Assembly: GCA_037974965.1 (NCBI GenBank)
Contig: JBBPFI010000007.1
Location: 1,488,001 to 1,552,000, forward strand
Source of the DNA: Dacryopinax spathularia
Lineage: Eukaryota; Basidiomycota; Dacrymycetes; Dacrymycetales; Dacrymycetaceae
Direction: 5' to 3'
Length of the DNA stretch: 64,000 nucleotides
Numbering within the stretch: the stretch's first letter is position 1; each line of letters begins with the position of its first letter. The translations under genes and the position numbers were made by a program. Below are positions 32,015 through 60,117 of the stretch, piece by piece. The notes under the pieces are model-generated. The model was not told the origin of the DNA, searched no databases, and saw only the letters and a program-made list of their open reading frames with translations.

Positions 32015-33449
32015 CTACGTCGCCGAATCCACCTCGCTCTCCTCCTCTAAGCACCCGAACTATGTATGCATGTTTAGCAGCACAGGGGCGCATCAGTAGC
32101 GCACTCACTCTACACTCTATGTAATTCAGGGCAGGGGTGTCGAGCTTGCGTGGTCCTGGCCGCCTGAACTGTATCGGTATCTGGAGCTGGATGCTGAACA
32201 TTCCCCCTTCATCAATTCGAAGCGAGATTTTGTCCGCGATGCTCGTGGCAGCCTTCGTTTGAATTATGTCCTTAAAGCGAAGGCTACAACCATCAGCATC
32301 ATTGGAACAAACTTCTACAGATCACCTGGCTCAGATAACTCACCTGACCTTGACTGGTTCATCATTGGCGAACTCAGCCACCTCCAGCTCATCATTGGGA
32401 TACTCAATCTGCCAACCACTTTAATACAAATTGTGGGGAGGCGGATGACGAGCGCACCGTCGTCGAGCGACCCGCAGGTCCGTGGCCCCTGATCCTCAGC
32501 ATCGGAACTTCTCTCTGCGACATATTGCGATCCGCCTCCTGCCCTTCCTCACGCCGTTGATTCTCCACACGGCGGGGTCGACAAAGTATCGTGAGTTTCT
32601 CCGTTTTCACATCCATCTGTTTGAGGGTATCGAGGAACCAGTCGGCGCGAAAGATCATACGAACCACCCTTTGAGAACTATCATCAGCTACGGAGCAAAC
32701 GGGCTTGCTCTCTCGCTTACTCGACCTTATCCTGGAAGGGCAAATCCAGCCCGCCTTCCGGCACGCACGTTGATAAGTGACATTCGGTCGTCTGGTTCGA
32801 CCCACTTGCACTAGATATCGCGGGGTCAGGCACGACGCTGCTGATGGGTCCAGACTCACATATATGCGGCCAATTGATGTCCCTCGCCTCGATACACCAT
32901 ATACATGCTGTTTGTATCGAGCCGTGGGTGGTCCTCATCGGGCGAATGCCCACTCTGCACAACCCCCAGAGAGCCATTCCTGGCTGCCGAGCTCCCGCCG
33001 CCAAAGCCACTTAAGGCTGCCAGCAACAACGGTATCTTGATGTCAATTGCATAAGGCTCGTTTTGCTGCGTGGCTTCGTCATATTGACTCTTGAACTCGT
33101 AGGACGCAAACGTATATGAGTGGATGTATGCTCGGGCTGTCTGGCGTGTGAGAATCATGCTGTGTGAACTGAGGCAACCGTCGAACCGCTCACTGAGCTC
33201 CCATTGTCCCCGCATATCATCAAGCCAGCATCTGACATCTCCAACGTGTTGTACTAGAGCATATCGTTAATCAGCGTCGCGTCGAAGGTGATGCCCGACT
33301 TGCGGTTCGACTGAGAAACGGCATAACCGCATGTAATATGTCTGCCAAGGGTTGTACATCCGCCGTCTCGATCACAAGCATCTGGACTACGGTGAGCGCG
33401 GATCGTCGACATTGACAAGGCTTACCGGTTCGGTCGTCCTTGTATCCAT
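32015..33449 (-). CDS. rad1: RAD1 subunit of the 9-1-1 checkpoint clamp
   Basis: RAD1 joins RAD9 and HUS1 in a PCNA-like ring loaded at damaged DNA by RAD17-RFC. The proposed first exon is MDTRTTEP (33449), then an exon with VIETADVQPLADILHAVMPF. The next contains MILTRQTARAYIHSYTFASY and the family signature AIDIKIPLLLAALSGFGGG, then MVYRGEGHQLAAYM. After an intron comes VVRMIFRADWFLDTLKQMDV followed by EKLTILCRP, then IPNDELEVAEFANDEPVKV. The last conserved exon is KAATSIADKISLRIDEGGMF followed by SIQLQIPIQF and ALNYIECR, matching the RAD1 C-terminus. A short acidic final exon (GCLEEESEVDSAT) ends at 32015. Exon borders at the N-terminus are the least sure part. The gene lies 3' to 3' with the integrase remnant and codirectional with rad9. 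Confidence 0.85.
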
Positions 33450-33767
33450 TTTCGATGTCTTATCTGCAAGCAGGAGGTGGTTGAGAAGACGAGATGCGGA
33501 GGCGACGACGCGAGAGCGCGTCGCCTCCTCAAGGCACGTGCCCCCTTGCTCGTCGCCCTGCCATATGATCTCTTGCCGTAACAGACCTCAGCATATGGGA
33601 CCATGCTTCGCGCGCCTCAGGCAAACTCCTCTCCAATCCGGGAGCTAGCTCTATTGCAAGTTTGGCTGATAAAGAGTATTCGTACCGGAAAACACACTTC
33701 AGGCCCAGCCGCTCAGATTAACGGAGGGTACCTTGAAGGAGTACACCATCGTGCGGGCAGTCTCCTA

Positions 33768-34092
33768 GGTAAGGCAGTCTTGGGAGAGGGCGGTTTTAAG
33801 GGAGGGCGCGATCTTGACGGCAGTCTTAGGCATGCGCCGTATTGAGGGAGGGCGGTCTTAGGGGAGGGCAGCGTTGAGGGAGTATGGTATTGAGAGCGGG
33901 CGATCTTGAGGGAGGGCGGTCTTGAGGGAGGGCGGTCTTAGAGGAGGGCAGGGTTGAGGGAGGACGGTGTTAAGGGAGGTCGATTTTGAGAGAGGGCAGT
34001 CTTAGGGGAGGGCAGCGTTGAGGGAGGATGGCCTTGAGGGAGGACGATCTTGAGGGAGGGCGGCGTTGAGGCACGATGGTGTCGAGGGAGGT
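33768..34092. repeat. 16-bp G-rich satellite, block 1
   Basis: A tandem array with a degenerate 16-17 bp unit, consensus GAGGGAGGRCGGTCTT, about 20 copies. It sits about 320 bp upstream of the predicted rad1 start and downstream of rad9. Many units carry TTAGGGG or TTGAGGG, telomere-like, but the period is not 6. Long Pro/Leu/Ser frames on the minus strand come from the repeat itself and are not taken as genes. Confidence 0.95.
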
Positions 34093-34474
34093 GATCTTCG
34101 GATGTTGTGGAGAGAACTGTGGGGTTGGCGAATGAAGCCATTGATACCATATCGTGTCGTCGTGTCGTTGACGAGCGGCCGGTTGCGCGGCAATCTTCGC
34201 AGACATGATCGAGGCCTAATGTCCACTTGATTACACACTTGCTACCGTACAAACCCAGGCTCGTGGTGGTGCATTCAACGTAACGATACAGCATTCTCAA
34301 CCCCTCCAGCATACCACTGTCTGATTAATTGACCTGTCCGCGTTTTCGCTCCGGACCACTGGCATCTCATCGACGAAGGTCGACCGAGTCGAAGCTTTAT
34401 TGCCGTGGTAATTCTCGTTACGGCATCATGTTCGATTTTAGTCGTCCAACAGAGCCTCGATCCGTAGAGGAAGG

Positions 34475-36330
34475 TCAGCACCGGCGGAAGTCAACCCTGT
34501 CGAAACTCACCCAATCGCCATTCCGTGGCGTGGCCTCCCATTCCTCGTCACTCTTCATCAGTGTAGGGGACGCAGTGTGCTGTGGAACTTGGCCTCCGAA
34601 AACTGGTGTGAGAATCTGCCGGTATCAGCACGCTTGAGACTCCGCTTGGTATTACTGGAGGAGGGGCATACCATCTGTCGGTCGCTCATTTGCGAAGAGC
34701 CCACATGTGGGTAACTAGACCTGGGATGATTCGTCTTATCGTTTGGCCTTCCCTGTGTCGACGCTGGTACTGCGCGCAGGTCGCAGCTTGGCGACGGGGG
34801 AGGCCAATACACTGGCGGCCTCGCGATTTGAGATGGCGGCCTCGGCGTCTGCGTTTGAGGCTGATTGGATGAGCTTCGTGAAGGTGTTTGGAACCTTAGC
34901 GCTGGCCCCTTGGGAGCTACCTCCGATGTGGCAGCTCGTTCCCTGTTCGTAGACACCTGAGTCTGCCCGGTTGTCAAAGGCCAGTTGTTCGAAGAGTATA
35001 GGTCACTCACAGAAGCCACCGGAATGCCCTGAGGTACCACATTCTCCTTATCCTCCGCCGCTGTACGACGCCGTTTGCCTTCGTTCGAGGCACCTGACTC
35101 GGAGGCCGAGCGCTTCACGCCCTTCTCTTCATGCAATTTGGTCATACCCAACAAGCACTCAAAGTACCATGATTGCCGACACATCTCAGCGGGCAGGTCG
35201 TCGCTAATCGTCAAGACGCAGGGAACTTCGTCCGGATCCCCGAACTCCCAAATCACGTCGCGGGCGGTACTATTAGCAAGAGACCAAACAGCCTAGTCGC
35301 AACATGAACGCAACGCTCATAGGGTGTGTGTGCTCCTCACCTGCACTTCGCGTAGCGGTACCTGGCAAAGAGGACTGTTCATGGGCGAACGAAACACCAG
35401 ACAATCCTGAGCTTGTACCCGCACGGAGGTGGTGATAAGTTGTTTGCCTGCACGATCAACAGTTAGGAGGATGACGATATAATGAGTTGCGGCCGCTCAC
35501 TCCCGCTGCATTCCAGCGCAAGCTCTTCTTCGGCCGTGCTGAAATCCAGCTTCGCCTCGGGTTCTGAACCAGCTTTCGTGGAAGCCTGCAGCAAAGCTTT
35601 GGCTGCCATCGGTCCGAGCTTGATCATAATCGGCAGGGTCGTACTATCCGCCTCGGGGCGTTGAAACGCATTTGCATCTGGCACGTCCTCAATAGGCAGG
35701 CGTTGGATCACTGCCCCGGCTAGAGGAGCATATATGCGTCAAATTTAGTCTTCTGGCAGGTGAATTCAAGATATTACCCACCTCGCGCGTTCTCGAAGCA
35801 TATATCTAGCCAATATCCTATATCTCCCCTTGCATCCCTCGCATCGTTGACTGGCGGGACGCAGATGCGCATCCTCACGCTGTCGATCGCGAAGGGCATG
35901 TCTCCAGGAGCCATTTTCGCCAACCACGCACGGCCATCGACAGCGAACTCCTCCGCGTCTCCGTCCTTAAGCACGGCTGGGGTACCACTATTGCTTGCCC
36001 CTCCACCCCAGTCATATTGCTCGAAGAAGCTTCTATTGAATACCGCATATGCTTGAGCTGTTTCGCCGAGGTTGATCGTCCGTACACGTATCTACGCAGG
36101 CTTCAGCGATCCATTCGTGTTCAGCGGTGCATCCATCCCTACTCACGGCGTCGTCTGTTGCTGTGAGAATGAACTTGTCTCCAGCGTTTCCGAGTGCCTT
36201 CAAGCATTTGGCGAATGCTTTCGTGACATACTACACTGAGCTTGAGGCATCCAACCACGCATGCGGATACCTTACTTTTGGCGCTCGAGGGGGTCATGAT
36301 GGCTGAGAGCCGGGCGTTGAGTGTTGGCAT
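34475..36330 (-). CDS. rad9: RAD9 subunit of the 9-1-1 checkpoint clamp
   Basis: RAD9 forms the clamp with RAD1 and HUS1; its C-terminal tail recruits TopBP1/Dpb11 to activate ATR. The start at 36330 gives MPTLNARLSAIMTPSSAKSK; then VTKAFAKCLKALGNAGDKFI, an intron, and IRVRTINLGETAQAYAVFNR followed by SFFEQYDWG, the RAD9 N-terminal PCNA-like pattern. Next come a second PCNA-like segment (PFAIDSVRMRICVPPV, IGYWLDICFE) and VPCVLTISDDLPAEMCRQSW. The tail is long and disordered, with a basic EGKRRR signal and several S/T-P sites. After an intron (about 34620-34675) the end reads ILTPVFGGQVPQHTASPTLM then KSDEEWEATPRNGDW, resembling a phospho-tail. It shares a 162-bp divergent upstream region with the PIF1 gene. 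Confidence 0.87.
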
Positions 36331-36492
36331 GGGGGGTGATATGACTAATTTACTACGGTCAGCGGGGGCCGAGAGAGCGATCGTCGGGAGCGAAGAAGGT
36401 TCGATGGACAGGAACGTCCCGCATCAAGTCTCTTCCGTAGATCGGGACATGTCTGCTCCAAAGCTTCTCTTGTTGAACAGCCACCACCCTCT
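36331..36492. promoter_or_regulatory. Bidirectional promoter region of rad9 and pif1
   Basis: Only 162 bp separate the two predicted divergent start codons, so the genes probably share regulatory sequence. No TATA box or named factor site was identified. An unseen first exon on either side would change the spacing. Confidence 0.5.
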
Positions 36493-38449
36493 ATGACGCG
36501 CATACAACCAAACCCGATGAGCTTCCCACAAACCAGCGCCAGTCGGCGACGGTCTCTGCTGCGGGACGCCATCTCTCTACGAGCCGTTCATGCTCAATGG
36601 CCATTGGATCGGACGACTTCTATCCCTACTCCAACGCAGCCTCACCCGATAGCCCATAACCAAGATACGACTCGGGCAGACCAGCCCAGGCTTGCAGACA
36701 GTTACGATGCATCTCAATCTGAGCCGCTCAGTGTCGAGCTCGAACTTTCACCTCAGCAACGCTATCTGCTGAAAATAGTTAGGCAGCGCGCCAATCTCTT
36801 CTTCACTGGTTCAGCGGGTACGCCTCCTATATGCGGTTCATCCCTGGCCTCGACTGAATCCCGCATTTGCATAGGGACTGGGAAATCTCTGACGCTGCGA
36901 AAGATTGTGGACGAGCTCCGGTCCATCCATGGTCCTGACAACGTAGCTCTCACCGCGACCACTGGGTCAGCGGCTTGCCAAATTGCGGGAGTAACCTTTC
37001 ACTCGTTTCTGGGCATTGGACTGGGATACGGTTCTCCAGCGGAGCTTGCCGAAAAGATGACACGTCATCCGTGGCGTTTGCAGCGGTTGCGCAGTACGAG
37101 AGCAATCGTCATAGATGAAGGTGAGTTTGCCACCTCCAAATGTTATCTTACTTGGCTCACCCGTCTACCAAGGCAGTTACCTTGCCGCAGGACTCATGGA
37201 TCGAGTGGACACCGCGCTCCAAGATATCCGCGAGTGCTCATTGCCCTTTGGCGGGCTACAGGCGAGTCACCCAGCTAGCAATTATTACCTGAACCTCAAC
37301 CTGTGTAGGTTGTTTGCACTGCCGATTTCTTCCAGCTGCCGCCCGTGAGCAAAGGTTGCCAAAAAACGCGTCTGGCCTTTCAATCTATGGTCTGGCGTAG
37401 GATCTTCCAACAGCATTCTTATCGCTTGACAACCATTTACCGGCAACAAGAGCCAGGTACGCCACTTCACACCGGAACGGCTATTCATTCTGGTCAACTT
37501 TACTGTAGAATTTGTGGCACTCCTGGAGGATATCCGTCAAGGTCGCGTCACCGATAAATCGACCCGTCTGATCGAGGCGCTTCGCGGCGAAGTACAGTAT
37601 CCCGATGGTATACCCCCGCCAAAACTGTAGGTGCGGCGGTATAGGTTTGGTATGCATGCTTAACGTATCATCGAAGGTTCAATCTGCGCCATCTTGTTCG
37701 AAAGGCAAACGACGCAGCATTAGCCTCTTTGCCTGGCACCAATCACGTGTACGTCGCGCAAGACGTGACGTACAGACGACCGAAAGCAGCTTGAGAACTG
37801 CTGGACGGACTCGTAGTACCTTCCAGCCTGGAGCTCAAGACAGGCGCTGTAGTCATGCTTCTTCACAATTGCCCCGAAGAACCCGGCCTGGGAAATGGAT
37901 CGATGGGTCGTGTTGTGGGTTTTGCGGATCATGCGAGCTCGCTGATCGCTTCCTCCTCGCGAGTCAACGCCCATCGGGGCGTCCAATATCCGATAGTGGA
38001 GTTCACTTTGCCCCTAGGAGGTACACGGACTGTGGTTGTCGTTCCACGCACTTGGAATTTAGAAGATGGCAGGGAGGTGCTCGCGAGACGCACTCAGGTA
38101 AGTTGTTTGCGGATACCGGTTTACTTTGCTGATCTGGTAATCCGTAGGTGCCCCTGACTCTCGCATATGCGATATCAACGCACAAGGCGCAGGGTTTGAC
38201 ACTCGATCGTGCAGTGGTGGACTTGAAAGGTGCATGGGAGCCCGGTAGGCCTTTCGTCGTCCCGCGCAGAAGTATGGGAAGTTCAGACTACCCGCAGGCC
38301 AAGTATATGTCGCATTGTCTCGCGTCCGCAAGCGACAGCGCCTGCAGGTACTCAACTTTGACCCAAGCAAAGTGAAGACACATCCCAAGGTTCACGAGTG
38401 GTATCGATCGATTCCCGAATGTCCCAGCGAACACGCTGGCTTCGTGTAA
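36493..38449 (+). CDS. pif1: PIF1-family ATP-dependent DNA helicase
   Basis: A 5'-to-3' superfamily 1B helicase; PIF1 enzymes unwind G-quadruplexes, act at telomeres and help replication and repair. The start at 36493 gives a short disordered N-terminus. LSPQQRYLLKIVRQRANLFF leads to Walker A, GSAGTGKSLTLRKIV, split by an intron. Motif Ia is VALTATTGSAACQIAGVTFH. Walker B is AIVIDE, then an intron, GSYLAAGLMDRVD and PFGGLQ. An intron with a GC donor (CAG then GCGAGT) joins VVCTADFFQLPPV (motif III). Later: YRLTTIYRQQEP, LLHNCPEEPGLGNGSMGRVV, TLAYAISTHKAQGLTLDRAV and GQVYVALSRVRKRQRLQVL. The end is FDPSKVKTHPKVHEWYRSI. No replication-initiator domain precedes it, so it is not a visible Helitron. 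Motif III has Ala where Gly is usual. Confidence 0.93.
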
Positions 38450-38715: not shown

Positions 38716-40187
38716 ATGGCTTCCCCCGCCAGTTGGCAACTGATCCATTCATGGCTCGCGGCAAACAACGCTACGGTTCGTGATACTTCCTCGCTCATGG
38801 CTAGTTCTACAGCGCTAACAATTCGGTAGAACGTACAGACGCTGATGAACGCTCTTCTCGCTCCAACCGGACCGCTCGGAGAGAAAGACTGGGCCCGCCG
38901 CTTGCATGAGGGGTTTACCGGCCCTCATATACAGGACAAAATAAAGTACGTCCGCATCGCTATACCTTGGATGCGCCCCTGGTTGACATACCGTTTCGCA
39001 GCTCTCCTCCTTCGCGGTTTCCGGCTCCATATCGCGAAGTCGCCACTGGCGCTTGCGCCGATGGTATACCCATCAAGCATGGCACAGTCCATCCGAATCC
39101 ACGCAGCCTGTTCGCGGTGCGCATTACCACGGACAACCTAAACTATCGCATTGCTGATGGATGCAACGCCCTGCGTGAGTCCCACCGTACTGCCGCTGCA
39201 GCGGTCACTGACCGCCATAGTCCACCTGCTTCGTGGAGCATTGGGCACTACGTCAGATTGGGCCACTCGCGCCTTGCACTTCGCTTGGCGACACCTCGTG
39301 AAGATTATTTATGGCAACAAGTGGGTTCCGACGGTCGTCAACTCAGTCGCCGTCCAGATCCGCACGGGAAACCCACCGTTTCAACCTTCGACATCGACTC
39401 TGGTACATCTCTCCGGATGCTCCACTCCCGGCGGCTGGGATCTCGACCCCAATATACCGGAGCATCTAAGGAGCCGCGATCATATATGGAAGTGGACCCT
39501 CCAGGAGCATCAGCAAGACGAGATCAGACGGCTCCTCAATGACGCGTCGAGGGACTCAGGCGACGAACTTCTGCGGATCGAAGCCTGGGGTAGAGCCCGA
39601 GGCACCCTACAAGGCGTCGACACTTACACTGGCGGCAATCCCGTCACCATCGGAAACTGCGCGGAGACTTCATTTATTATCTGGTACGGGCTCTGGCTAG
39701 CTCCCAATGCCGGTCCTTGATCTTACTTCATGACAGGATCGCCGTGATTTCTCATTCTCGGCTTCTCAGGAAGAATTATCAAGATCTCACTTTCCGCTTG
39801 ACGACCTTTTTCGGATTCAAAAGCACGTTCAAGTCCCTCGTGAATGAGCTCAGCACGCAGGTGCGGCAGGGGATGCCCGCAAATCAATTGGAGCAGCGGA
39901 TGCAGGCGATCTTCCGAGATGCGCGTGCTCTACAACTCTGCGTTCACCCATGCTGGCGTTGCAAGCTGTGTTTCACTGTCGAAGATACCGTCTGTCCGCC
40001 GTGGATCCTCCACCTGGACTACCTTTATAGCGACGGTACCTGGCAGCTGTTTGCTAAATGGAACTGGTCGGAGGTCATGAACGAATGCAAGGATCGAGCC
40101 TCCACGATACACGACCGCGTCGCGGCGATTGTGGGTCAGGGTAACCCAGGCGCTCGGAGTCGTCTGCGAGTACATGGGAATGTCTAA
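38716..40187 (+). CDS. Unknown protein with a possible cytidine-deaminase-like Cys signature
   Basis: Family not recognised with certainty. The start at 38716 gives MASPASWQLIHSWLAANNAT; introns (about 38776-38829, 38945-39000, 39172-39217, 39684-39737) keep one frame of about 430 codons. Two short motifs stand out: TIGNCAETSFIIW, a CAE box, and about 80 residues later CVHPCWRCKLC, a PCxxC box. In the deaminase superfamily a (H/C)AE followed by PCxxC binds the catalytic zinc. The spacing is longer than usual and no strand pattern was proved, so the assignment is tentative. It could instead be an unrelated zinc-binding protein. It lies 266 bp after the PIF1 gene on the same strand. Confidence 0.4.
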
Positions 40188-41220: not shown

Positions 41221-43374
41221 CTACCCGAGCGGAGCCTCCAAGGCTATGCCCAAGCGAGCCGCGATTGCCTGGCGCAAATCGAGAGGCGTATCTTGGTTGG
41301 CGACGTGGGCGATGTCGTCCACTAGGGAAGAGTAGACGTGCCAGGCGTCGGGATGCGCGGGCTTGTAGAAGTCTGCCATATGAGCGTCTTTGACTCTCAA
41401 GAGTGTAAGCGCATTCTTCGCATGATGGTCGTCATATCGAAATTCGACATCGAAGGGCCGGATGACTGGCTGGTCATGCGCCCTAGCCACAGGTTGCGCA
41501 GCCTCCGCGTCCGTCATATCGGTGTCGCTATCGCTGTCGTCGACGCCGATGTCTTCGGACATCCTGAGCGCGATATATCGCCATTCTTGCAGTCCTGGGC
41601 GCGCCACCACGGCAATCCAAGTAGAGAAATATGTGTCCGTGTCCATTCCTACTAGGCTGAGGGGTCGCACGACCCCATAACACTGCTGCAATATCATTTG
41701 TGGGCCCTTAGGATTATAGAACCTCTCTTTCTGTACCCGGAGATGAACCGGAGAGCTCCATAGGGCAGGGACACCGTCCATACGGAGTCCGAGCTCAGGG
41801 GAAACCTGTGCCTGTTCGATTACGCCTCCCGCGGCTCGACGAGCATACAGCATGCTCTGCCGAGGAGTCATCAGAATCTAGGGAACGGGCGCGGAGGGAA
41901 CTCTTACCGGGTCTCTGCAAGGCAGAGCGCGGGTGGGACCACGCAGCTTCCACTCCGAGATGTTGGGCGTGGGTTGAGAGGTATTTCTACCAACGATCTC
42001 CTTGCAAATTATTTCTTGCCACAGCGTAGTTTCTAGTTGGCCAACTAGGAGCGTCGCCGTTCGCGCGCCTTCATCAACCTCAATAATCTCCATACGATTG
42101 CAGTGCAGGAGGGTGTTCGCGGTTCCTGCGGCTTTGGCAACATTGCTCTGTTGTATACTGAGCTCGGGGTTTACTGCATAGCGGAAGCCGGTGGGAAATG
42201 GCGGAAGAACGGCCATGGTGACGTAGGTGGTGTTAGTGCCGATCACGTGTCCAATATACCAAAGACTGCGAGCTTGCGGACCAAGACAGATCGCTGAGAT
42301 GGCCCTCGTAGGCTCAATCGGCACGTCAGCCCACCAGGATGGAGCAGCCTTGCTGTCATCCATGCCCGCCTGACAATACAACCGCAGGTCCGTAGACCGT
42401 CTCACGGCGAGGACCTTGCCTGTAGCGGAATGAAACATGGTCTCCCATCCGTGAGAGATACCACCGATGGAGGATTCAAGCACTGGCCGCACACGATTGA
42501 AACAGTTGAGAGGCGCCGCGGGAGAAGTCCAAGGCGCACTCTTGTGCTCGATAGATGCCCGGGTATAGGTCATTAGGAAGCCGTGTTCGTCGTTATGGAG
42601 CACGAGCGCGTCATAGGGCGGTAGATACGTCCCGGATACCGTCCCGTGCTTGCCAACAAATCAATTGCCCGATCTGGAAACTTGCGAATATGCACGTACC
42701 CAAGTGTCCAGATCGATATCCACAAAACGGTCGTCTTCCAGGTTCCTAGAATGGACTCGCGGCATTCCTTCTAGGTCCGCAAAGGTAGCCCACGGGAAAG
42801 CCACGGCGACCGGATTTGCGCTACCATATATTGGGCTGGCGTCGACCGGGTACCCAAACTGGAAGGTTATGCGGTAAGTGATGACTCGGGTGGCCGCCGC
42901 GGAGGGCCGCGGCATGGAGCCGGTGCGCTGCATCTGGATGGTGTGCAGTTTCCACGACACTATCATCAACAGCCCATCCTGCGCCTGCAGACAGACTTGG
43001 GGCCGGCCATACAGCGCCAAAACCTCCCCTTCGCGCCGCTCCTCTGGAAGGGTCCACTGTTGCGGTGTTGGTTCCTCCAGGTAGGCTCGGATGCAGCCGC
43101 TGTCGTCGATAAAGACGTGCCACCGTCCTTCTGAGAGGTAAGAAACCACGTTGGCTTGCAAGCCAGTGTGCTTGGCGGGGCGGATCTCAAGCGCCGTGTA
43201 GAACCGCGGGATGTCTCTGATCCCGGCGGGAGTGGTAACCGGGGGATAGATGGTTGGAGGAGGAGGGGGGGACCAATCCTGTTGTTCTTGGTCCGTGTGG
43301 GGCCTATCCCAGTGACCTGGGTAGTAGCCGCCCTGCGGGTCTCGAAGGACAAGTGTACTGTCTGCCATTCTCAA
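41221..43374 (-). CDS. Unknown protein of about 690 residues
   Basis: Not recognised. It starts at 43374 (MRMADSTLVLRDPQGGYYPG) and has at least two introns (about 42650-42700 and a 51-nt one near 41860-41910). The N-terminal third is Pro/Gln-rich and then passes into strand-like segments (ANVVSYLSEGRWHVFIDDSG, VLALYGRPQVCLQAQDGLLM). The middle (YDALVLHNDEHGFLMTYTRA, WETMFHSATGKVLAVRRSTD, SLWYIGHVIGTNTTYVTMAV) repeats a strand-turn pattern that would suit a beta-propeller or other all-beta fold. A short Asp/Ser-rich segment (DDSDSDTDMTDAEAA) comes before the end. It is divergent from the next gene across 268 bp. Fold is inference from pattern only. Confidence 0.7.
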
Positions 43375-47212: not shown

Positions 47213-49595
47213 TCATTCTTGGACATCTTCGATGTTGTCGTCTTCCAGCCAGCTGGGAGCTACTTCTGCTCCGACTGGGACATCCTCCCGGTCTTGTGCG
47301 GCGGTGGCAACATTTGGATGGATTGACATCAAGTCGTCGGAGAGGAAATCGCCATTCTGGAGGTCTTCGGTAGTATCCCACTCTCGTGGCGCATATGCTG
47401 CATTCCATGGCATAGACGTCAGGTTACCCAATGGAGAAGGCGTAGGACCGCCGGCCTTGGACAATACCCATCCCTGCTCCAGGAGTTCAACATTATCAGG
47501 GCTTTGAGCGACTTCAAGACTCTCGCGGCGCCAATCTTGAAGCCTCTGTTGACCGTCGCTAAGGTCGCGATTATATGTCCACATGTCTGACTTCATCAGC
47601 TTCTGATTGTTGCGAGGGACTGGCGAGGGTAACGCCATCAGGATACCGCGAACGAGAGCATGGAAAGATGTTTCGGGCAGTTGTATGCGTCCGTACTAGG
47701 TTGTGTAAGTGCCGGGTAAACAGGGCTGATGTCATTGCTCACTGTGTCATCTGTGCTGAACCAGTCACTGTAGCTGATGGACTCCGCCAGTGAATCCAGG
47801 TTTTCGAGATCAGTGCAGAAAAGGGGATAATTGGCGTGACAATATGACAAGAGTAGAATGAGGTCCACAGGCGACTGGTTAAACAACTCCTGCCACCATA
47901 ATCAGACGCGCCGTGTATATGTCATGCATGTTGAATACGCATACATTGACGTCCACCTTGGAAGGACGGCGCTCGAAAGCCGCGAGATGGGGAGGAAGCT
48001 CCGTGCGCTCGTCGCGGACCAGATTTGACCTTGGGTCCGACGGGTCATCGCCGTCTCCTGCAGGTCACTCGATGTCAGAACTCACGAAGCATCGGTGGAG
48101 GGGCGCTACGTACGTTTGTTGTACATGAGCCGGCCAATCATGTGGAACAGCTTAATGGCCTGGTCCTGCCGCGTGAGACCGGCCATTCTGACGCCAATGA
48201 GTATACTGGATCATCATCGGCTCAATATGGACTTACACCGTTCTGACCTCCTCTGTCATCTTTGTTCGACCTTGGGGGAGATTACGGAGGCACATAACCT
48301 GGAGGGCATGGACCGCATTGCGCATATCACCTAGTGAGCCTTCGATCGCCACGTCTACCGGCAGTTGGTAGGTACGATAGTCCTTGTGGGGCGCGGCCTG
48401 ACTCAAGATGCGCAAGAGAGCGGGACGCATCAAGGTCGGTGCGATGGGGTTGAACCTTGGAAAGCTCAGTACAAAATGTAAGAGAATAGAGTGGAACGTA
48501 CTCGATAATGGTCACGCCCGGGCTGTCTAGCAGCTTCCGCCCGAGCATCTGTCTGATGTCCGGGGCTTGAGACCTATCCGCAGCCTCCATTTCCATCCCT
48601 CTCCATCCATCGTCACTCACGATCAAGATTGCCGGCGGCGCCATGGTATCCAGCACAAGCGTTTGTAGCGCGCTCTGGAACGCTTCAAGGACAGCGGAAT
48701 GCGCTACATTTGGCAAATCTTCCAGCAGAATAGCACGATGGCGGATGATGCCTGGGGTGGATCCACGTTCGCGGGCTACTTGGGACAAGGTGTGCTCGGT
48801 CCGTGTGAGGAAGGCTTTGAACTTGCGCGAAATGGATTCTGTGAAAACGGTGCGAAAGTCTGAGCTGAAGGATAGAGCCAGGATTACAGCCTACACACCT
48901 TGATCGTCAATATTACCGTCGGTGTGCCACTCAAGCAGTTGCATATTCATGTCCCTGGCGAGCATGCGGACCGTAGCAGTCTTCCCGGCTCCAGCAGGAC
49001 CAGTTAGGACGAGGAGTTTCTGAAAGATAACACTTTAAGCGCATGGGTGAGTATTGGTGAGCTGACACTCACCCCGGGCTGGCAGCGACTTCTCTCGGAA
49101 CGCTCAACCGCCGTCCGCAGCCAGCGAGCCACGTCTTCTACCTTGCGCTTGTGCACGGCCAAGTCCTCCTTGCGTGAGCGCCGCAAGAGTCAACCCTCAC
49201 CCTAATCGCCTTGGTAGATTGCTTACTGTTCTGCGTGGCCCAAACCGATCAATCCATTGCATCCCGTCTAGTCAGCGCGAAGCGTCAAATTCCAGACATC
49301 GAGTGCATGACCGCACGGAGTACGAACCATCTGCAAGCTGTGGTGTGGTAGCCGAGCCTGCGGAGGATGTCGGTATTATCGCATGCGCGTTTCTCCCGCT
49401 TGCAGCGCGCTGAGTGTCCGGTATAGAGAACCGGCGCTATTGACCAAGCTCGTCGACGTCCATCCAGAGCAGATTGAGGCGCATATATGCGTACCATGGA
49501 GAGGGGACGAAGAGATCTTGCCGATTGAGTTGTTGGCGGTCCATTTCCGAGCTGCACATGTCTAGCTTTGCCGGCTTGTCCTCCCCCTTTCCCAT
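47213..49595 (-). CDS. rad17: RAD17 checkpoint clamp loader
   Basis: RAD17 replaces RFC1 in the clamp loader that puts the 9-1-1 ring on RPA-coated junctions. The proposed start (49595) gives MGKGEDKPAKLDM, then NLLWMD. After introns comes DLAVHKRKVEDVARWLRTAV, then the Walker A exon KLLVLTGPAGAGKTATVRML with MQLLEWHTDGNIDDQ. AILLEDLPNVAHSAVLEAFQ holds the RAD17-type Walker B (LEDLPN), followed by PPAILIVSDDG and RKLLDSPGVTIIE. Then LMRPALLRILSQAA, GSLGDMRNAVHALQV, and the family-specific TRQDQAIKLFHMIGRLMYNK. The lid and collar part has VDLILLLSYCHANYPLFCTD and LDSLAESISYSDWFSTDD. An acidic tail (WLEDDNIEDVQE) ends at 47213. N-terminal exon borders are uncertain. Confidence 0.9.
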
Positions 49596-49847: not shown

Positions 49848-51090
49848 GACGGAGGACAGTGTTGAGGGAGGGAGGTGTTGAGGGAGGTCGATGTTGAGGG
49901 AGGTCGATCCAGAGGGAGGGCAGTCTTAGGGGAAGGCCGTATTGATTGGGAGCAGTCTTATAAGAGGGCGGCGTTAGGGGAGGGCGGCGTTGAGGGGGGA
50001 CGAATTTGAGGGAGGACGATCTTAAGCAGGGTCGAGTTTGAGGGAGGACGTTATTGAGGGAGGACGATCTTGAGGGAGGGCTGTCTTGAAGGAGGGCACA
50101 CCGTTGAGGGAGCATGGTCTTGAGGGAGGACGGTGTTAACGGAGGTCCATCTTGAGGGAGGGCAGTCTTGGGGGAGGGCAGCGGCGTTGAGGGGGGACGA
50201 GTTTGAGGGAGGACGATCTTAAGCAGGGTCGAGTTTGAGGGAGGACATTATTGAGGGAGGACGATCTTGAGGGAGGGCTGTCTTGAAGGAGGGCACACCG
50301 TTGAGGGAGGATGGTCTTGAGGGAGGACGGTGTTAACGGAGGTCCATCTTGAGGGAGGGCAGTCTTGGGGGAGGGCAGCGTTGAGGGAGGATGGTCTTGA
50401 GGGAGGACGGTGTTAAGGGAGGTCCATCTTGAGGGAGGGCAGTCTTGGGGGAGGGCGGCGTTGAGGGAGGACAATATTGACGACGGGCGGTCTTGGAGGA
50501 CGGTCTTGAGGGAGGATGGTCTTGAGGGAGGGCACACCATTGAGGGAGGATGGTCTTGAGGGAGGACGGTGTTAAGGGAGGTCGATCTTGAGGTTGAGGG
50601 AGGGCGGTCTTAAGGGAGGGCAGCGTTGAGGGAGGGCAGTCTTGGGGGAGGGCGGCGTTGAGGGAGGACGATAGTGACGGCGGGCGATCTTGGAGGGCGG
50701 TCTTGAGGGAGGTCGGTCTTGAGGGAGGGCACACCATTGAGGGAGGATGGTCTTGAGGGAGGACGGTGTTAAGGGAGGTCGATCTTGAGGTTGAGGGAGG
50801 GCAGTCTTAAGGGAGGGCAGCGTTGAGGGAGGGCAGACTTAGGGGAGGGCAGCGTTGAGGGAGGACAATAGTGACGGCGGGCGATCTTGGAGGGCGGTCT
50901 TGAGGGAGGTCGGTCTTGAGGGAGGGCACACCAGTGAGGGAGGATGGTGTTAAGGGAGGGCAGGTTGAGGGAGGCCGTGTTGATGGAGGGCAGTCTTAGG
51001 GAGGTCGAACTTGAGGGATGACGCTGTCGACGGCGAACGGCGCTGAGGGAGCTCGATCTTGAAGGAGGGCCTTGTAGAGGGAGGGGGAGT
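49848..51090. repeat. 16-bp G-rich satellite, block 2, with higher-order repeats
   Basis: The same unit as block 1 (GAGGGAGGRCGGTCTT) fills about 1.24 kb, some 250 bp upstream of the predicted rad17 start. Inside it a longer period of about 196-198 bp shows: GGACGATCTTAAGCAGGGTCG occurs near 50015 and again near 50213, and GGAGGTCGATCTTGAGGTTG near 50577 and 50773. The right end decays into irregular copies (50940-51090). Long minus-strand Pro/Leu/Ser frames are products of the repeat. Confidence 0.95.
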
Positions 51091-51347
51091 TTGAGGAAGT
51101 AGATGGTGAGGCGACGCCATGCACTCTTTTTTGCCAGGCGGAAGGGAGCAGGTTCGCGGAATTAAGGAAGGATATGTGTGATGATTCCAGATAGGTTACC
51201 TAGCATCCTCCCAGGAATTACAAAACTATTCCAACAGGAAGAGTAATACAAGATCTATGGCTGGTGGCCGTGATTGACAGAGGATGCCACGCCCGTGCAA
51301 GGATTGAGAACAGGGTGGATAAACGAAGCGATGTGGAAAGAGCGAGA

Positions 51348-54097
51348 TCATGGATCTCCCTGACGAGACCGACGAGCGCCGGGACGACGAGCACGCGAGC
51401 GAGGACCATATTGGGGAAAGTGTTTCTTGATTGCGTTTTCCACCTTCTCAATCGGCCACCGTTTCGCGTACAACGCGAAGTCTTCTTCCGTTGTTACAAG
51501 ACCCGCCTGAACCGGAGCGACAATCTCCTCCCTAACCGAGTCGGAGGCGAAAAGGAAGCCGACAATTCCGAGCACTTGAACGGCGTCGTATTTCTCCTTA
51601 TCCTCCCCTACCGGGTGGGCATTAGCGAGGATAGCCTTGTCTCGGAAGAAAAGACGGCGTTTCTCCTGCCAGAGCAATTCCCAGCGATTGAGCATCCCGA
51701 ATCGATTGGAGTAGGTGGACCGGCTGAATGCTTTACCACGAAGAAGTTCATTGAACCATGCGCAAACGTGTTCCGGTGTCAATTCTTTCGACCAGCCACC
51801 GGCAGTATCTACCGCCCGATGCCTCGTCTTCGAGTTGGACAAGACCATATCGAGGGCCTCAAAAACCTCGGCATACGCTTGCGTGTGAAGCTTCATTCGC
51901 AATAGTCCCCGAACCTGGGAAGGTCGAGGAGAGCGTTCATCAATGCGGGGGGTTATATCGGGGCAAATCGACTCCAGATACGCCCGGACGAGCGGAAAGT
52001 CTTCAGCATATTGTATGCGAGCGAATGGGTTTTCGGTTTTGGGTCTGGAAACCGGAACGATAGCAGAAGGACGCTCGGCACGCATCGGCACCACGCGATG
52101 GCGAAGTACCGGGCTGGAACGATCGGAAGATCCCATAGTGACCCCTGATCCGTGCAAGACGGTGGAAGGGTCGACTGTAATGAAATCCGCGCTAGTTTCG
52201 GAGCCCTCTTGCTCGCCATCGGCCGTAAGCTCGGGAGTAGACGCGAGGAGCTCCTCGAGGCCATCGACCTCATTGTCACTAGACCTTTCAGACCCTCGGT
52301 GGTGGGAACGAGGCACAGACGGCAAGGCCGTTGTCACATGCAGGGTTGCACCTGGCAACGGTGCTGGCGGACCTTCGACCACGTCCACTGAGCAGTCGAT
52401 GAGGTAGAAGCAGTATGCTCGCGGGAGAGTCTCAGGCATTACGGCCGGGCTGGTGGAGCGCTGAACCTGCTCCAGAAAGGTCGAGTATCGGATGTCAGAA
52501 GTGTTGATTGCGGGGATGGGGGTGTTGACCGGGTTGCCGCTGGGATACAGGAGTTCCGCCAGAGGCCCAAGGGAGACATAGGCGGAGCCAGTCTGCGTAA
52601 AGGATCGGTTGACATCGGACAGTGACGGAAGCGAGCATGCTGCTAGTTCGAACGACTGGTATTCTTCATCAAGAAACTGCTGGAACTTATGCGCACGGTG
52701 TCCAGAGTTGCCAGGGGGGGCAGGAAGGAAGAGATGAGGTACAAGCAGTCCCGCAGGCGGAGAATGTGGCAATACGGGCAACTTGACGTTCGGTCGCATT
52801 ACCACCTCCACCTGTGATCTTCCACGCCTGCATAGGAGCAGCCAGGCGGTGCATTGAGGCGAAAGGGTTGGAACGGAAACCGCGATGGTTTGAGTGGAAT
52901 CGTCATGATATTCGTTGTGCGTTCCGTCAGACTCTCTATGCGAAGAATTAGCTTCGTCATTCGAAGCTGAAGATGCACGTACACGTGGGCGAGATTGGAC
53001 CCGGTAGTGTCGCTTCCCTCTATTGCCTGGTACAACCCGTCGTTTGAAGGTGAGGACGGGACAGACCGGCTGCAGGCAGGGTCAGTGGGGCCGGGATTAC
53101 AGCGAACATCCTACACGAACCTGGGTCGGGGCTGGAAGAAAGAATTTTCGAGCTCGCGAGTAGGAATGGGTTCCGTGGATCGGCGACTGCCACCATCGTC
53201 AAGGAGAGGCAGGGACAGATCGCTCTCGTACACGTGCCTCGGCGAGAGCTCGATGGCCTGTTGGTTTGGGTCGCGGGATGTAGGGGTTGACGTTGCAGAT
53301 CGACGACTGCTGACGGGGTGAGTGGGCAGAGCATAGCTGCACGGAATGCTGATGCACGCACCTCGGGGAGAGCTGAATGAGGTGCCGGTTTGGGTTGTGA
53401 GACGTAGGGGTTGATGCCGCAGAATGATGACTGCCAGCTTTAGTTAATGAAATGAATATACAGAGGATGGTGATGCACATGCCTCGGCGAGGGCTCGGGA
53501 AGCCTCGAGTCAAGGGGTGTTAGAGTAGATGTTGCAGAAGGACGACCGCTGCCGAAGTTGATAAGATGAACGTCAGAAACGCTCCTACACGTACCTCGGC
53601 GAGAGTTGCATAGGCTGCCAATTCGGTTCGCGAGACAAAGGAGCCATTTCTGCTGGCACTGTGTTCGACAGGCGTGCAAGGGGGACGGATCGTCGAGTCA
53701 AGCGGTCTGCCACATACGTATGGCTGAGATCTGGAACAGGGCCGTTAGAGCGGAGCAGTCTGGCCATGTTGAGAACGCAGAGCCTGGATGGCGAGTACAA
53801 TGATGGACTGTAGAGTCCGTCCGCTAAACGACGCGAGAGGGCCACGACAGCCAGAAGGGTTGGCAGGGCGAGCTGTTCGTCCACGGAGGCAGAGTCACGT
53901 GTCATAGGCTGAATGTCCAGTATACTCACCTCTATTAAGTAGCTACTGAGGTTTCCGTGCATTGACTGCCCGTTCTGCCAATCGGGCTTGAAATAGCTAG
54001 ACTTGCTTCCAGGCATACCCAAAGACAGAATCTCGACTTGCGAGGAGCTTAACTGAATCGTCTGGAAGTGGAAGGCGATGCTATGCCCACGGAGCAT
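51348..54097 (-). CDS. Unknown protein with tandem mini-exon repeats
   Basis: Not recognised. A candidate start is 54097 (MLRGHSIAFHFQTIQLSSSQ), with a block SYFKPDWQNGQSMHGNLSSY and then LALPTLLAVVALSRRLADGL after an intron. From 53660 down to 53100 the gene runs through tandem mini-exons of 66, 69 and 72 nt with the same phase, encoding repeats such as SRRSATSTPTSRDPNQQAIE followed by LSPS. A leucine-rich helix (VYVHLQLRMTKLILRIESLT) follows. The large 3' exon (about 52690-51348) has FQQFLDEEYQSFELAACSLP, a disordered middle, and a helical C-terminal domain (FPLVRAYLESICPDITP, VRGLLRMKLHTQAYAEVFEA, CAWFNELLRGKAFSRS) with a basic Arg-rich end. S/T-P density suggests kinase regulation. Confidence 0.7.
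53110..53620 (-). repeat. Tandem array of about 115-125 bp units, each holding one mini-exon
   Basis: Four diverged units, each an intron plus a short exon ending CTCTCNCCGAG before a GT or GC donor (GTACGT, GCATGT, GTGCGT, GCACGT). Exon lengths of 66, 69 and 72 nt are all multiples of three and all in phase 2, so each can be skipped or duplicated without frame change. Confidence 0.8.
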
Positions 54098-54240
54098 ACG
54101 GGAGCTCAGAGGTTCACCCCAATTTATTGGACGCGAGGCATCCTTCTCCTACATGGACATCAATAAGTGACAACCGCAAACTCGACCGAATAGTAATCTC
54201 TCATGTGATATAAAACAGCGGTTGTCCTGACAGGGTTGAA

Positions 54241-55675
54241 CTAGCTAAGGGGCGAGAGCTTGGTGTTGAACCATACATTGAGGTCTTGTTTCAGAGCGTG
54301 GATGAGTTCGCGGAGCCGGGCAAGGGGCATGGATGGGTTCTGCCACGCCTCACCGAGCTCAACCACGTCCGAAAGGACGCAAAGTTCGGTATCTCTGGAG
54401 ATCCTCTCATCAGTGAGCAGGCTTCGAATGATCCGACGAGCGAACGCAGGGTGCTGGCAGAGTCGTTCATTCCATGCATGCAGTGTGCGCGGGTCGGAGA
54501 GGTGGCGATCCTCATCGCTGTCGTTTGTGGGATGGTCAGGTGCGCCAATGGAGTGAGATCCGCTGCGATGGCTCGCCGAAGATGACGACTGTATTTGTAT
54601 ATATCACCTGATCTCCATTCCAGATGGGCTGAAGCGGCAACTTACTACAGACGACGCTCTGTGAAAGGCTGCGTCCTCCCATGAAACGGCGGCCTGACGG
54701 TCCCGCGGGGTATACGTCGCCTCGGGAGCAGCCAAGAAAGTAGCTGAGTTGACACTGGCCGGGGAAGGCGGAGTAGGGGGAATATTGCAAGCGTTCTTAT
54801 TTGCCAGAAGGGAGGCATCCATGCCCTAGAAAGACTAAGTAAGACTAGTGATTGGGGCACACAGGACGCACATACATGCTCGTTTCCATGGTGTCCGTCC
54901 TCGTCATCCTCTTCCATGTCCTCATCGCTTTCGTGTTCATGATCTGCGAGAAGGGTCGGATCGATGCGGTTATCCTGTAGGCGGGCGTGAGTATCATTGA
55001 ATGGCGCATATACAAAGCGCATACAATCGCATTGGCGGTTGCTTCGTCCTCGTCCACCTCGTCTTCGTCCACCTCCCGATTTGACTTGTATTGATGGTCC
55101 TCCTCAGATAAAGAGCCGTCTTTCTCGTGGAAACCAGAGTCGCCTTTGCATGCAGTCGATTCCTTTGGCAGCACGCCAATGGCCGCAGTTGTCGACCGCA
55201 GGGAGTAAGGTTCCCGAGCGGATACATGACGGCCACGGCGGGAGGAGCTCGCACCGACCAATGAGAAAGCGCCTACTGCCTGAGAGCTGCTACGACTGCC
55301 TTCAGCCTCCAGAGCCTTGATAGTGCGCAGCTTGTAGACCGCGGGAAAGAAGACTTCCTTCTGACTGAAGTAGCCGTCCCAATCCCCTCGAGTGACCAGC
55401 TCGTATCGAGGATTGACTATGGGAATCGCTTTCTTACCGTTCTTGTGACTACCCAGACTCGTTCGGTTATGGATATCATCCACGGAGTTGCTACGAGACC
55501 CGTCGTTCTGCCGTCTGCCAGCTGCCTTCTTCTTCGCGGCAGCCTTCCTCTTCGCTTCAGTTTCGCAGTGATGTTGCAGTAGCCACTCGTCCCTGCGACC
55601 CTCTGCTACAGCCTTCTGATATGCAGCTTCGTATGCCTCCCACTCGTCATCTTTCTGCTGAATGGTCTTGGGCAT
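54241..55675 (-). CDS. Unknown acidic protein
   Basis: Not recognised. The start at 55675 gives MPKTIQQKDDEWEAYEAAYQ, a helical charged segment with a Lys/Ala-rich run (KRKAAAKKKAAGRRQN). Next comes a conserved-looking block (IVNPRYELVTRGDWDGYFSQ then KEVFFPAVYKLRTIKALEAE), then a Ser-rich linker and acidic stretches (REVDEDEVDEDEATAN, ESDEDMEEDDEDG). After introns near 54990, 54850 and 54640 the last exon shows HAWNERLCQHPAFARRIIRS, RDTELCVLSDVVELGEAWQN and LRELIHALKQDLNVWFNTKL, clearly structured, ending at 54241. Acidic patches beside helical ends suit a histone or DNA-protein adaptor, but that is guesswork. Confidence 0.65.
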
Positions 55676-55901
55676 CGTGGACAAGGCGGTTTGGATGTGT
55701 GTAGTCCAGCGAAGAAGTGAAGTCCGCGTCCGCGAGCGCTTATACGGAGTAATGAACTGTCGGAGCTTGAAGTGGAAGCAATGACATGCTTGTTTGGACA
55801 TGCACCCAGACGGCATTCCACCGTCGGGTCGGATCGGTTCCACGGAGTAGCCTGTTCTGATGGGTCCCAATCAGTCCAACAGCAGATAATCGTGTGCAAA
55901 G

Positions 55902-56341: not shown

Positions 56342-56396
56342 GTAGCGCGATTTTATCTCCTGACGAGCTCACTACCTTGTCGGCCGTTATGGGATC

Positions 56397-57658
56397 TCAC
56401 GCGCCCCGTATTCCATCCACCAATATGTGGCGCGCAGTTCCTCTCACTTCAGCCGAGAAGCGGTTCCAGAAAAGAAGGCGGTCCGGAGGTGAAGCACTGA
56501 GGAACTTGTCTCGGATGGAATGATAGAACTGGCGATATGGGAAAGCTGAACGATGGCAGTTACTTTCGTCGGGCGCTTCTCGATTCACAGCCGCGATTAA
56601 CTGTAGCGGACTGAGGCTAGACAACCGTGAATAACAAGGAGTCAACTCACCAGCGCCCCCACGTACAAGATACTCGATATTCTGGAGTGATCATCCGGCA
56701 GGTGCAGGCGACTGTTCACCGGGCGGAAGATGAGGGCGTAAAACTACCGAATTGTTCAGGCATGGTCAGCGAGAGAAAAGAGTGCTACATACAACCACCA
56801 CCAACTGGCTTTGTAACAGCCCTGAAAATGGAAGCTGGTCGTGCCTCCGCCAACGATGATATAGCAGCGCCGGCCAGCGCGCGGAAGGCTGTTCGAAAAC
56901 TGAATCATCGGTAGCTGTCGTAGCAAGTAGCGGTGGGGGTTGCAGCATGGGTAGAAGTGACGCTATTGCGTCGTCTCCATCATCCATGGAGGGTGCAACC
57001 AACCGTACAACCGATTGGAGGACGTGACGAACATAGCGCAAGTCGCTTGGAAGAATGCGATTGTATCCATCTTTAACCTAGCAAAAATATGTGAAAGGTT
57101 AACGTGGTGCAACGGGAGACGCGTCGAAACCCAACGTACTTGGGTATACACGATGCTGTACACAGCAGGTCCCATGAACACTGCCAGGAGAAGGAGGCGG
57201 TCGAGATCCGGCGTGTGTGCGCACAGCGCGTCAAGGTCGTGGTCGACTTCAACAGCCGCCTCGATGGCCTCCCTTTCCCACCGAGAATGGATTGGGAGGA
57301 TAGGAGGCTTGTGCACCGTTAAGAGTCTCTTGTAGCGGCGCCGAATGAATTCGTCAACATCCAAGTAGAGGCTTTCGAAACGGCGAATGCGGGCACCAAC
57401 GCTACCAAATTCTCCCAAGAAGACTCTCTCTCTACAGAGTGCAATATATGAACTGAGGAAGAGCTCATCGAGCAGCAAGCGTCGCACCTTTGGGCTCCAG
57501 TAAGAAGACCTTCCAGCTGTTGATCGTTCATATCGACCTCGGGGGCGAGGTTTGCGGCTCTTGGTTAGAGTCAGAGAGTGTATGGTCACGGCAGAGAGAA
57601 AGGGAAGGCTTCCTCTCTCCTCAACCCAAGCATTTGCTTGCCATGAAGGAGAAGCCAT
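56397..57658 (-). CDS. Unknown helical protein
   Basis: Not recognised. Candidate start 57658 (MASPSWQANAWVEERGSLPF). A basic region (SRKPRPRGRYERSTAGRSS) leads to a helical domain (VRRLLLDELFLSSYIALCRE, RIRRFESLYLDVDEFIRRRY, LDRLLLLAVFMGPAVYSIVY). An intron (GTACGT...GCTAG, about 57075-57138) joins it to KDGYNRILPSDLRYVRHVLQ then SVVRLVAPSMDD. After one or two more introns the end reads LSPLQLIAAVNREAPDESNC and FYHSIRDKFLSASPPDRLLF, stopping at 56397. The hydrophobic stretch LLLLAVFMGPAVYSIVY is too short and interrupted to be called a membrane segment with confidence. Confidence 0.6.
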
Positions 57659-58110
57659 GTTCGTGGAATTGCAGAAATGCGTCTGGGATTGTTCTCAACA
57701 TCAAGGGCATAATGACATGCCAGTGCGACGCGTCCGCCGCTGGGATGCCTCAACCCCTGCACACACCTGCGCACACCCGGATACACCGCACAACTCTGTC
57801 TCTCCAACCGTTGACACCATGGACAACCTACTTTCAACTCTAAGCACCCTGTTCCCCCGTCTCTAAACCCAGATACATCGGGCAGACAACCGCTACCACC
57901 GAGAGATACCCGCGTTCCCCCAAGGAACCCTATACACCTGTCGCTTGGACGACTCTTCTCATCTTCGCATCCGCCCCATCAACTCAGAACGTCGTGCTTC
58001 CTGGGAACATGTATTCTGCGGCAGGGAGACCGCTCGGTCTCCTGACCGCTGCCTGCTCGTTTCGTATTGCGGCCATCCAGAACCGCTCTCTACACGGTGC
58101 TGCATGCAGC
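57659..58110. other. Divergent intergenic region
   Basis: About 450 bp, C-rich near 57740-57860, between the unknown helical gene (minus) and the RPA3-like gene (plus). An open frame upstream of ATG 58111 could extend the RPA3-like protein to 57994, but without family support. Confidence 0.35.
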
Positions 58111-58781
58111 ATGGAGCACGACAATCTCGTCCCCCTCTCTGAAGATGACAGCAGCGAGTACGCGACACCGACAGACCTAGCTATCACAGACGATGAGCTG
58201 AGCAACCATGGATCGGGGGCGACTGAGGCTCATGCCGGGGTGAGGCAGACGAAGGTGGATTGGGCCCAGCCTCGCGCGCGAGTGAATGGACGGTGGCTCG
58301 AGCACTTCCTCGGCAAGCGCGTCACGCTAACCTGTAGAATCGAGGAGAAGGCAGGTTATCTATTGGAGTATCGTTATGACATCTAACATGAGCTTTGATG
58401 CTAGATATCCGGTGGCCAGTTGTCCGTGTCCTGTACGGATGGGAGGATTGTCCTGGTCGATTTAAATGAAGTACGCCTGCCCAATGATTCTCTCTGTCAG
58501 CTCCTACTGACCGCTCCTAGTTTGCTGGACTTGCACTCAGAGGACCGTTCCTCGAGCTTATCGTTGAGGTAACGAATGTTGACCGTGTCAAGCTCTTACA
58601 TTCGCCCTGCGAGATGGGTGACAGCCTCGGTGCGACCTCCCTGCAATCGATTGCGATGATCCTCAAACTTTGAGCCTTAGATTTTGCGCTCATCAACGAC
58701 CTCTACGAACTAATGTTTCGGTACAGCACTCCTTTCATCGACCCGGCCGAGTTAGCTGGATCACAGGAGACGTCTTCGTGA
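58111..58781 (+). CDS. rpa3: RPA3-like OB-fold protein (replication protein A 14-kDa subunit)
   Basis: RPA3 is the smallest subunit of the single-strand DNA binding trimer that signals to RAD17 and ATR. From ATG 58111 (MEHDNLVPLSEDDSSEY) an acidic tail of about 60 residues precedes the OB fold: RVNGRWLEHFLGKRVTLTCR then IEEK; an intron with a GC donor (AAG then GCAGGT); ISGGQLSVSCTDGRIVLVDL; an intron; FAGLALRGPFLELIVEVTNV with DRVKLLHSPCEMGDSL; an intron; and DFALINDLYELMFRY. The order strand-turn-strand, then a GDxLD-like motif and C-terminal helix is that of RPA3, whose helix packs in the trimer core. The acidic N-terminal extension is unusual. Ten1, a CST subunit of related fold, is the main alternative. 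Confidence 0.75.
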
Positions 58782-60115: not shown

Positions 60116-60117
60116 GT

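Follow-up and report, generated by a model that had tools for sequence, protein, structure and literature searches.

Where a fork has stalled or a break has been resected, single-stranded DNA becomes coated by RPA, and RAD17, acting with the small subunits of RFC, places the RAD9-RAD1-HUS1 (9-1-1) clamp at the RPA-coated DNA, the clamp then recruiting the ATR activator. Helicases of the PIF1 type work on forks and on G-quadruplex DNA. To our knowledge, linked 9-1-1/RAD17 genes are known from no fungus, and linked RAD1, RAD9 and RAD17 genes were not named among the literature matches listed, with subscription papers outside the scope of that search. In the window, by which we mean the whole 64,000-nucleotide stretch of Dacryopinax spathularia DNA that was analysed, spliced models examined by Pfam and solved-structure searches revealed rad1, rad9, PIF1, rad17 and RPA3, all close together on one contig. 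As in the described clamp and its RAD17-RFC loader, RAD1, RAD9 and RAD17 are recognisable here and RAD17 keeps its ATPase motifs; in contrast to that system, the genes are linked, RAD9 is divergent and an insensitive scan of the window detected no HUS1.

Another point of comparison is provided by Starships, large cargo-carrying fungal transposons which, in the accessible part of PMC12134995, have been reported in Pezizomycotina and are grouped by a tyrosine recombinase. The present locus resembles them in having several genes near an integrase-like gene, but the neighbour here is an rve-type integrase core and element ends were not found within the window. As far as the accessible part of PMC10799480 goes, the transposon-derived helicases treated there have no bearing on this locus.

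Checkpoint-type genes and their support

The five genes lie in the following order within 32015-58781:

32015..33449, minus strand: RAD1, 9-1-1 clamp subunit (342 aa encoded by 9 exons; refined model)
34438..36330, minus strand: RAD9, divergent 9-1-1 clamp subunit (501 aa encoded by 8 exons, with an inferred start codon)
36493..38449, plus strand: PIF1-type helicase (505 aa encoded by 9 exons)
47213..49595, minus strand: RAD17, 9-1-1 clamp loader (603 aa encoded by 11 exons; N-terminus uncertain)
58111..58781, plus strand: RPA3, small RPA subunit (171 aa encoded by 4 exons, with a GC-AG first intron and an inferred start codon)

The first-pass annotation had claimed five checkpoint-type genes within 27 kb, and this was confirmed with Pfam or solved-structure support for each; its interval was also exact, since the stop codons of RAD1 and RPA3 end at 32015 and 58781, respectively. 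It had named beforehand failure in HMM searches as grounds for abandoning the claim; when these were run, four of the five proteins scored above the Pfam curated cut-off and the claim was left standing, with RAD9, 0.6 bits short, drawing independent support from alignment with human RAD9. The five models, which were refined by hand, contain no internal stops, and their introns are 44-87 bp long with GT-AG or GC-AG ends. Gene-finder models at 11-23 kb still run neighbouring genes together.

Among the clamp subunits, RAD1 matched Pfam Rad1 at 124.8 bits (E 4e-36, cut-off 24), with residues 11-303 aligned to positions 3-255 of the 257-position profile, so that the Rad1/Rec1 clamp domain spans the whole protein; seven of its eight introns are GT-AG and one is GC-AG, and it also matched human RAD1 (E 2.8e-6). 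RAD9 is the least well supported of the five identifications. It reached 24.4 bits against Pfam Rad9 (E 2e-5, cut-off 25), covering only positions 1-50 of 253, together with a weak 17.4-bit match to the Rad1 profile, and an earlier, incomplete model gave no PDB match up to E 10. Comparison with human RAD9 yielded the following results: 1) 61 N-terminal residues aligned without gaps, scoring 94 where the best of 300 shuffles reached 57 (z 11.4); 2) the C-terminal clamp part scored 42 where the best of 300 shuffles reached 33 (z 5.5); 3) the whole stretch beyond the N-terminal domain was weaker, 5 of 300 shuffles scoring as high, and the match over the middle part lacked significance; and 4) no significant match was obtained for the phosphorylated tail that binds TopBP1/Dpb11, since 24 of 300 shuffles equalled its score. 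As for HUS1, 19 queries for 16 gene models gave no Hus1 Pfam match, nor did a set of 18 frame translations covering portions of 29.1-64 kb, a scan judged insensitive because it also missed RPA3, which is present there. We surmise that HUS1 and the RFC subunits are encoded elsewhere in the genome.

The P-loop domain of RAD17 matched Pfam Rad17 at 82.5 bits (E 5e-23, cut-off 23.8) and carries both motifs, Walker A GPAGAGKT and EDLPN, while RAD24_helical stayed below its cut-off (26.4 vs. 27 bits). Searches of solved structures recovered the RAD17 part of a RAD1-RAD17 fusion (7z6h chain B, E 5.1e-27) and yeast Rad24 (E 2.3e-13). A tRNA-Thr called by ARAGORN at 47980-48064, overlapping this gene, is probably false because an Rfam search returned no RNA family at gathering thresholds. 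RPA3 matched Pfam Rep_fac-A_3 at 40.3 bits (E 4e-10, cut-off 23.5) over positions 3-105 of 105, placing an OB domain in the protein; the 14 matches that it gave in the PDB up to E 1 include no RPA3.

The helicase has a PIF1 domain (69.9 bits vs. a cut-off of 25.9, for the first model) and shares with the PIF1 family Walker A and C-terminal helicase motifs. The top match of the refined model is a solved ATP-dependent DNA helicase PIF1 (5o6b, E 1.6e-83), as opposed to 7.5e-13 for Helraiser; judged by this comparison, the protein is far nearer to host-type PIF1 than to a Helitron. Pfam gave no match to the Helitron replication domain. The protein differs from the solved PIF1 in that motif II reads DEGSY instead of DEISM and in that it lacks some 100 residues that follow the 2B region there. 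In addition, the intron at 37749-37826 is in doubt and would introduce an in-frame TGA if retained, so the gene may be damaged. A scan of bacterial and archaeal genomes returned one distant bacterial PIF1-like match at 25% identity; neither that scan nor the scans of viral contigs, all able to reach just close relatives, turned up a fungal relative.

Neighbouring genes and minisatellites

Between RAD1 and RPA3 there are five further models of unrecognised function, and two more genes lie just outside the block:

30024..31849, plus strand: integrase-core gene (rva_4), adjoining RAD1 on the left and outside 32015-58781; exon model approximate
33767..34098, plus strand: minisatellite array with 16-bp unit TTGAGGGAGGGCGGTC, located between the end of RAD9 and the start of RAD1
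38716..40187, plus strand: unrecognised gene, 380 aa, from the self-trained gene finder; start and exons uncertain; no Pfam match
41221..43368, minus strand: unrecognised gene, 681 aa, 3 exons, two 51-bp introns; no Pfam match
43691..47017, plus strand: unrecognised gene or genes, 931 aa model; 3' exons uncertain; no Pfam match
49848..51096, plus strand: second array with 16-bp unit TTGAGGGAGGGCGGTC, upstream of RAD17, in the orientation of the first
51348..55675, minus strand: unrecognised gene, 1241 aa model, 9 exons; no Pfam match
56444..57878, minus strand: weak unrecognised model, 356 aa; sub-threshold DUF6698 (Pfam 16.5 bits vs. cut-off 23.7)
60118..63823, minus strand: unrecognised gene, 1090 aa model, outside 32015-58781; no Pfam match

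The integrase-core gene matched Pfam rva_4 at 222 bits (E 6.6e-66). Predicted folds were unusable for the 41221..43368 protein (mean pLDDT 32.0) and for one exon of the 51348..55675 gene (33.6), and NCBIfam gave no match for two proteins from the window. The two arrays contain stretches up to 82% identical to each other. G-quadruplex-like patterns occur in both and elsewhere, amounting to 28 on the plus strand and 13 on the minus strand of the window.

Explanations for the linkage

Under random gene order, linkage of three clamp/loader genes is improbable: the probability of finding three of RAD1, RAD9, HUS1 and RAD17 within 17.6 kb is 3.0e-6, 1.5e-6 and 5.8e-7 for genomes of 35, 50 and 80 Mb, respectively, an estimate that covers the named clamp/loader set only, with RPA3 and PIF1 counting after the fact. 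Allowing for 1000 comparable gene sets, it becomes 0.0006-0.003. The first-pass annotation had offered two explanations, a selected cluster or a mobile paralogue set. The low probability would be in keeping with a checkpoint cluster maintained by selection through co-expression or co-inheritance, with a two-way promoter serving RAD9 and PIF1, whose starts lie head to head and 162 bp apart; RAD9 and RAD1 are also in tandem, all three clamp/loader genes are on the minus strand, and the 16-bp minisatellite is found upstream of RAD1 as well as RAD17. We nevertheless regard a maintained cluster as decidedly unlikely. No 8-mer is common to at least three of four upstream regions, the MluI-box-like ACGCGT shows no enrichment across the window (18 vs. 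14 expected, 12 of 100 shuffles having as many), and the five unrecognised models are interposed between RAD1 and RPA3. Neither the RAD9/PIF1 start region nor the common minisatellite demonstrates co-regulation. The arrays are also possible assembly break points, lying as they do between RAD9 and RAD1 and beside RAD17, and might mark a join of unrelated contigs. A join within an array could detach RAD1 or RPA3 but would not part RAD9, PIF1 and RAD17, because all three lie between the arrays; with local GC near 53-57% on either side of them, we consider such a join very improbable.

Alternatively, the genes may form a divergent second 9-1-1/RAD17 module, that is, linked paralogues possibly moved once by a large element, with the main set elsewhere. 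Several features point in this direction: RAD9 is slightly under its Pfam cut-off, RPA3 and PIF1 look divergent, an integrase-core gene adjoins the block, long genes lack any Pfam match, and the intron density of the five genes (4.6-7.8 per kb of coding sequence) is unlike that of eight left-flank models (0-3.7). Paralogues would also fit a divergent RAD9 and an RPA3 lacking a solved-RPA3 match. Against this, RAD1 and RAD17 are solid family members, PIF1 sides with the host type, and GC3 is mostly flank-like (0.55-0.65 in the five genes vs. 0.59-0.71 in the eight flank models, a large overlap, with PIF1 at 0.55 under the flank range). No inverted repeats framing the block were found within the window, the longest being 35 nt at 74% among the 25 of 34 pairs listed, although the block may pass the window end. 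Moreover, divergence alone does not show paralogy, because in lineages that evolve fast the 9-1-1 clamp is difficult to identify from its sequence, according to the accessible part of PMC9053307. We thus view a second module as unlikely, and we are equally doubtful of the wider proposal of a eukaryotic checkpoint cassette, in which a linked divergent 9-1-1/RAD17 module would be inherited as a block with PIF1 and RPA3, beside or replacing the usual scattered genes.

On balance, we lean towards an ordinary fungal chromosome with genuine RAD1, RAD9, RAD17, PIF1-type and RPA3 genes, mostly apparently working host copies, whose linkage would be a lineage-specific order. We counted in favour of this host-gene reading the homology matches, open frames, intron ends, RAD17 motifs, GC3, and the lack of framing repeats and of a common 8-mer, and against it the improbable linkage, the divergence of RAD9, the missing solved-RPA3 match, intron density, PIF1 GC3, altered motif II, possible stop and the failure to find HUS1. 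Among the features examined, none indicates a joint system or a mobile element. From the homologies, gene order and open spliced frames observed, we infer that the proteins are probably produced and act in the pathway, where, with RPA on single-stranded DNA, RAD17-RFC would load the clamp and the ATR activator would be brought in. Most likely, this pathway does not need the linkage, since the clamp, its loader and RPA all work in trans.

Significance of the linkage

If the linkage were merely drift, the locus would show only that known genes can end up adjacent. Should the linkage instead prove conserved, or the set turn out to be a second copy, the locus would rank among the rare eukaryotic examples of a DNA-damage checkpoint pathway arranged in a gene block, and would offer a ready test of co-inheritance or co-expression of the clamp and loader genes.

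Five named genes and their neighbours

The first-pass annotation had placed RAD1, RAD9, a PIF1-type helicase, RAD17 and RPA3 near one another, an observation that was confirmed by spliced models together with Pfam, PDB and pairwise matches. Models came from a self-trained spliced gene finder, with those of the five named genes then refined by hand; translation starts and several of the splice sites are predictions. Genes in the window are spliced and their introns short, in line with expectation for a basidiomycete; GC is 52-61% per 2-kb step.

Gene models in and around the block
30024-31849, integrase-core gene (Pfam rva_4, E 6.6e-66), adjoining RAD1 on the left
32015-33449, minus, RAD1, nine exons; Pfam Rad1 124.8 bits, nearly whole profile
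34438-36330, minus, probable RAD9; Pfam Rad9 24.4 bits (cut-off 25)
36493-38449, plus, PIF1; solved ATP-dependent DNA helicase PIF1, E 1.6e-83
38716-40187, longer model without Pfam match
41221-43368, longer model without Pfam match
43691-47017, longer model without Pfam match
47213-49595, minus, RAD17, eleven exons; Pfam Rad17 P-loop domain 82.5 bits
51348-55675, longer model without Pfam match
56444-57878, sixth such model, with a sub-threshold Pfam match to DUF6698
58111-58781, plus, RPA3; Pfam 40.3 bits over full profile
60118-63823, longer model without Pfam match

Elsewhere in the window, a related gene occurs in three tandem copies (~16300-21600, spacing ~2.2 kb) with pairwise identities of 37-45% (94/253, 94/254 and 120/266 residues); the single copy scanned gave a sub-threshold PHD_NSD match (16.1 bits, cut-off 23.9). 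A 46-T run at 25796-25841, directly following a predicted exon in the region of what we take to be an M20-peptidase-like gene, may be a weak spot of the assembly. A 68-bp repeat is present twice head-to-tail (59976-60116, 97% identical) where the last gene model ends.

Identity of the clamp, loader and helicase genes

In PDB searches, the RAD1 model matched human RAD1 (E 2.8e-6); the RAD17 model hit chain B of 7z6h in its RAD17 portion at E 5.1e-27, and yeast Rad24 at E 2.3e-13. ARAGORN called a tRNA-Thr antisense to RAD17 (47980-48064), without support in the Rfam scan. RAD9 is the weakest of the five identifications, and an earlier, incomplete model found no match in the PDB. Its N-terminus aligned with human RAD9 over 61 residues without gaps (z 11.4), as did its C-terminal clamp segment (z 5.5), with 0/300 shuffles equalling either score; the whole stretch C-terminal to the N-terminal domain (5/300 shuffles as high) and the tail (24/300) are not convincing alone. 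Based on the two former alignments, we judge the product to be RAD9. Since the 9-1-1 clamp of Microsporidia, believed absent, was detected via structure, as an excerpt of one study reports (PMC9053307), RAD9 divergence alone does not imply a paralogue.

PIF1 looks like a host-type helicase rather than a Helitron part, given E 1.6e-83 to solved PIF1 vs. 7.5e-13 to Helraiser in the PDB comparison; its motif II reads DEGSY. The best splice excises 37749-37826, where read-through in the same frame gives PIF1-like residues around one TGA, so that this segment may be either genuinely intronic or an exon damaged by a nonsense change. An excerpt of another study lists PIF1-like helicases as a contracted family in one mushroom (PMC12411881), hence multi-member, and a PIF1 neighbour thus adds little to the linkage.

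RPA3 itself was not among the 14 PDB matches to its model at E up to 1. HUS1, the remaining clamp subunit, was not found when 16 gene models were searched as 19 protein queries, nor in 18 frame translations (both strands of 38.45-47.2 and 49.6-64 kb, the plus strand of 29.1-34.4 kb and the minus strand of 29.1-32.0 kb). As these translations recovered the integrase and one sub-threshold HTH_8 match and missed RPA3, the latter negative proves little.

Chance, maintenance or a linked module

Under random gene order in a single genome, with genome size, set size and module number assumed, the probability of three of RAD1/RAD9/HUS1/RAD17 within 17.6 kb is 3.0e-6, 1.5e-6 and 5.8e-7 at 35, 50 and 80 Mb, or 0.003, 0.0015 and 0.0006 after multiplying by 1000 comparable four-gene modules. 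For a looser 30-gene fork/checkpoint set in 27 kb, it is 0.007-0.0014 for three and 2.4e-7 to 8.9e-9 for five, RPA3 having entered the count post hoc, after being seen. Weaker-odds linkages would be expected once many genomes are scanned. The most likely reading, one we favor at somewhat better than even, is that these are ordinary genes of the host whose neighbourhood is unusual.

That the genes form a divergent linked module, possibly once mobile like the paralogue set proposed in the first-pass annotation, we consider unlikely. Introns per kb coding are 4.6-7.8 in the five genes vs. 0-3.7 in eight left-flank models; because models lying between the named genes carry 1.0-3.5, we read this as gene-to-gene variation, leaving the odds of the readings as before. 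GC3 overlaps largely (0.55-0.65 vs. 0.59-0.71 in the left flank, PIF1 falling just under), and of the 25 inverted-repeat pairs listed (from 34) none is a long one flanking the block. A 16-bp minisatellite forms two arrays in the same orientation, in the RAD9-RAD1 gap and upstream of RAD17, with stretches up to 82% identical between them and 69/76 of the window's near-matches to its core; we see no reason to take it for more than a local repeat. A maintained cluster is also improbable and ranks after the module. The predicted starts of RAD9 and PIF1 lie 162 bp apart, which allows a common promoter; no 8-mer was common to three of four upstream regions and ACGCGT was not enriched. A misjoin in assembly is very improbable.

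Rec1, the RAD1 counterpart in Ustilago maydis, is dispensable, and cells lacking it are reported to be DNA-damage sensitive (PMC4573213); this shows the role of a basidiomycete clamp subunit and is silent on gene order.
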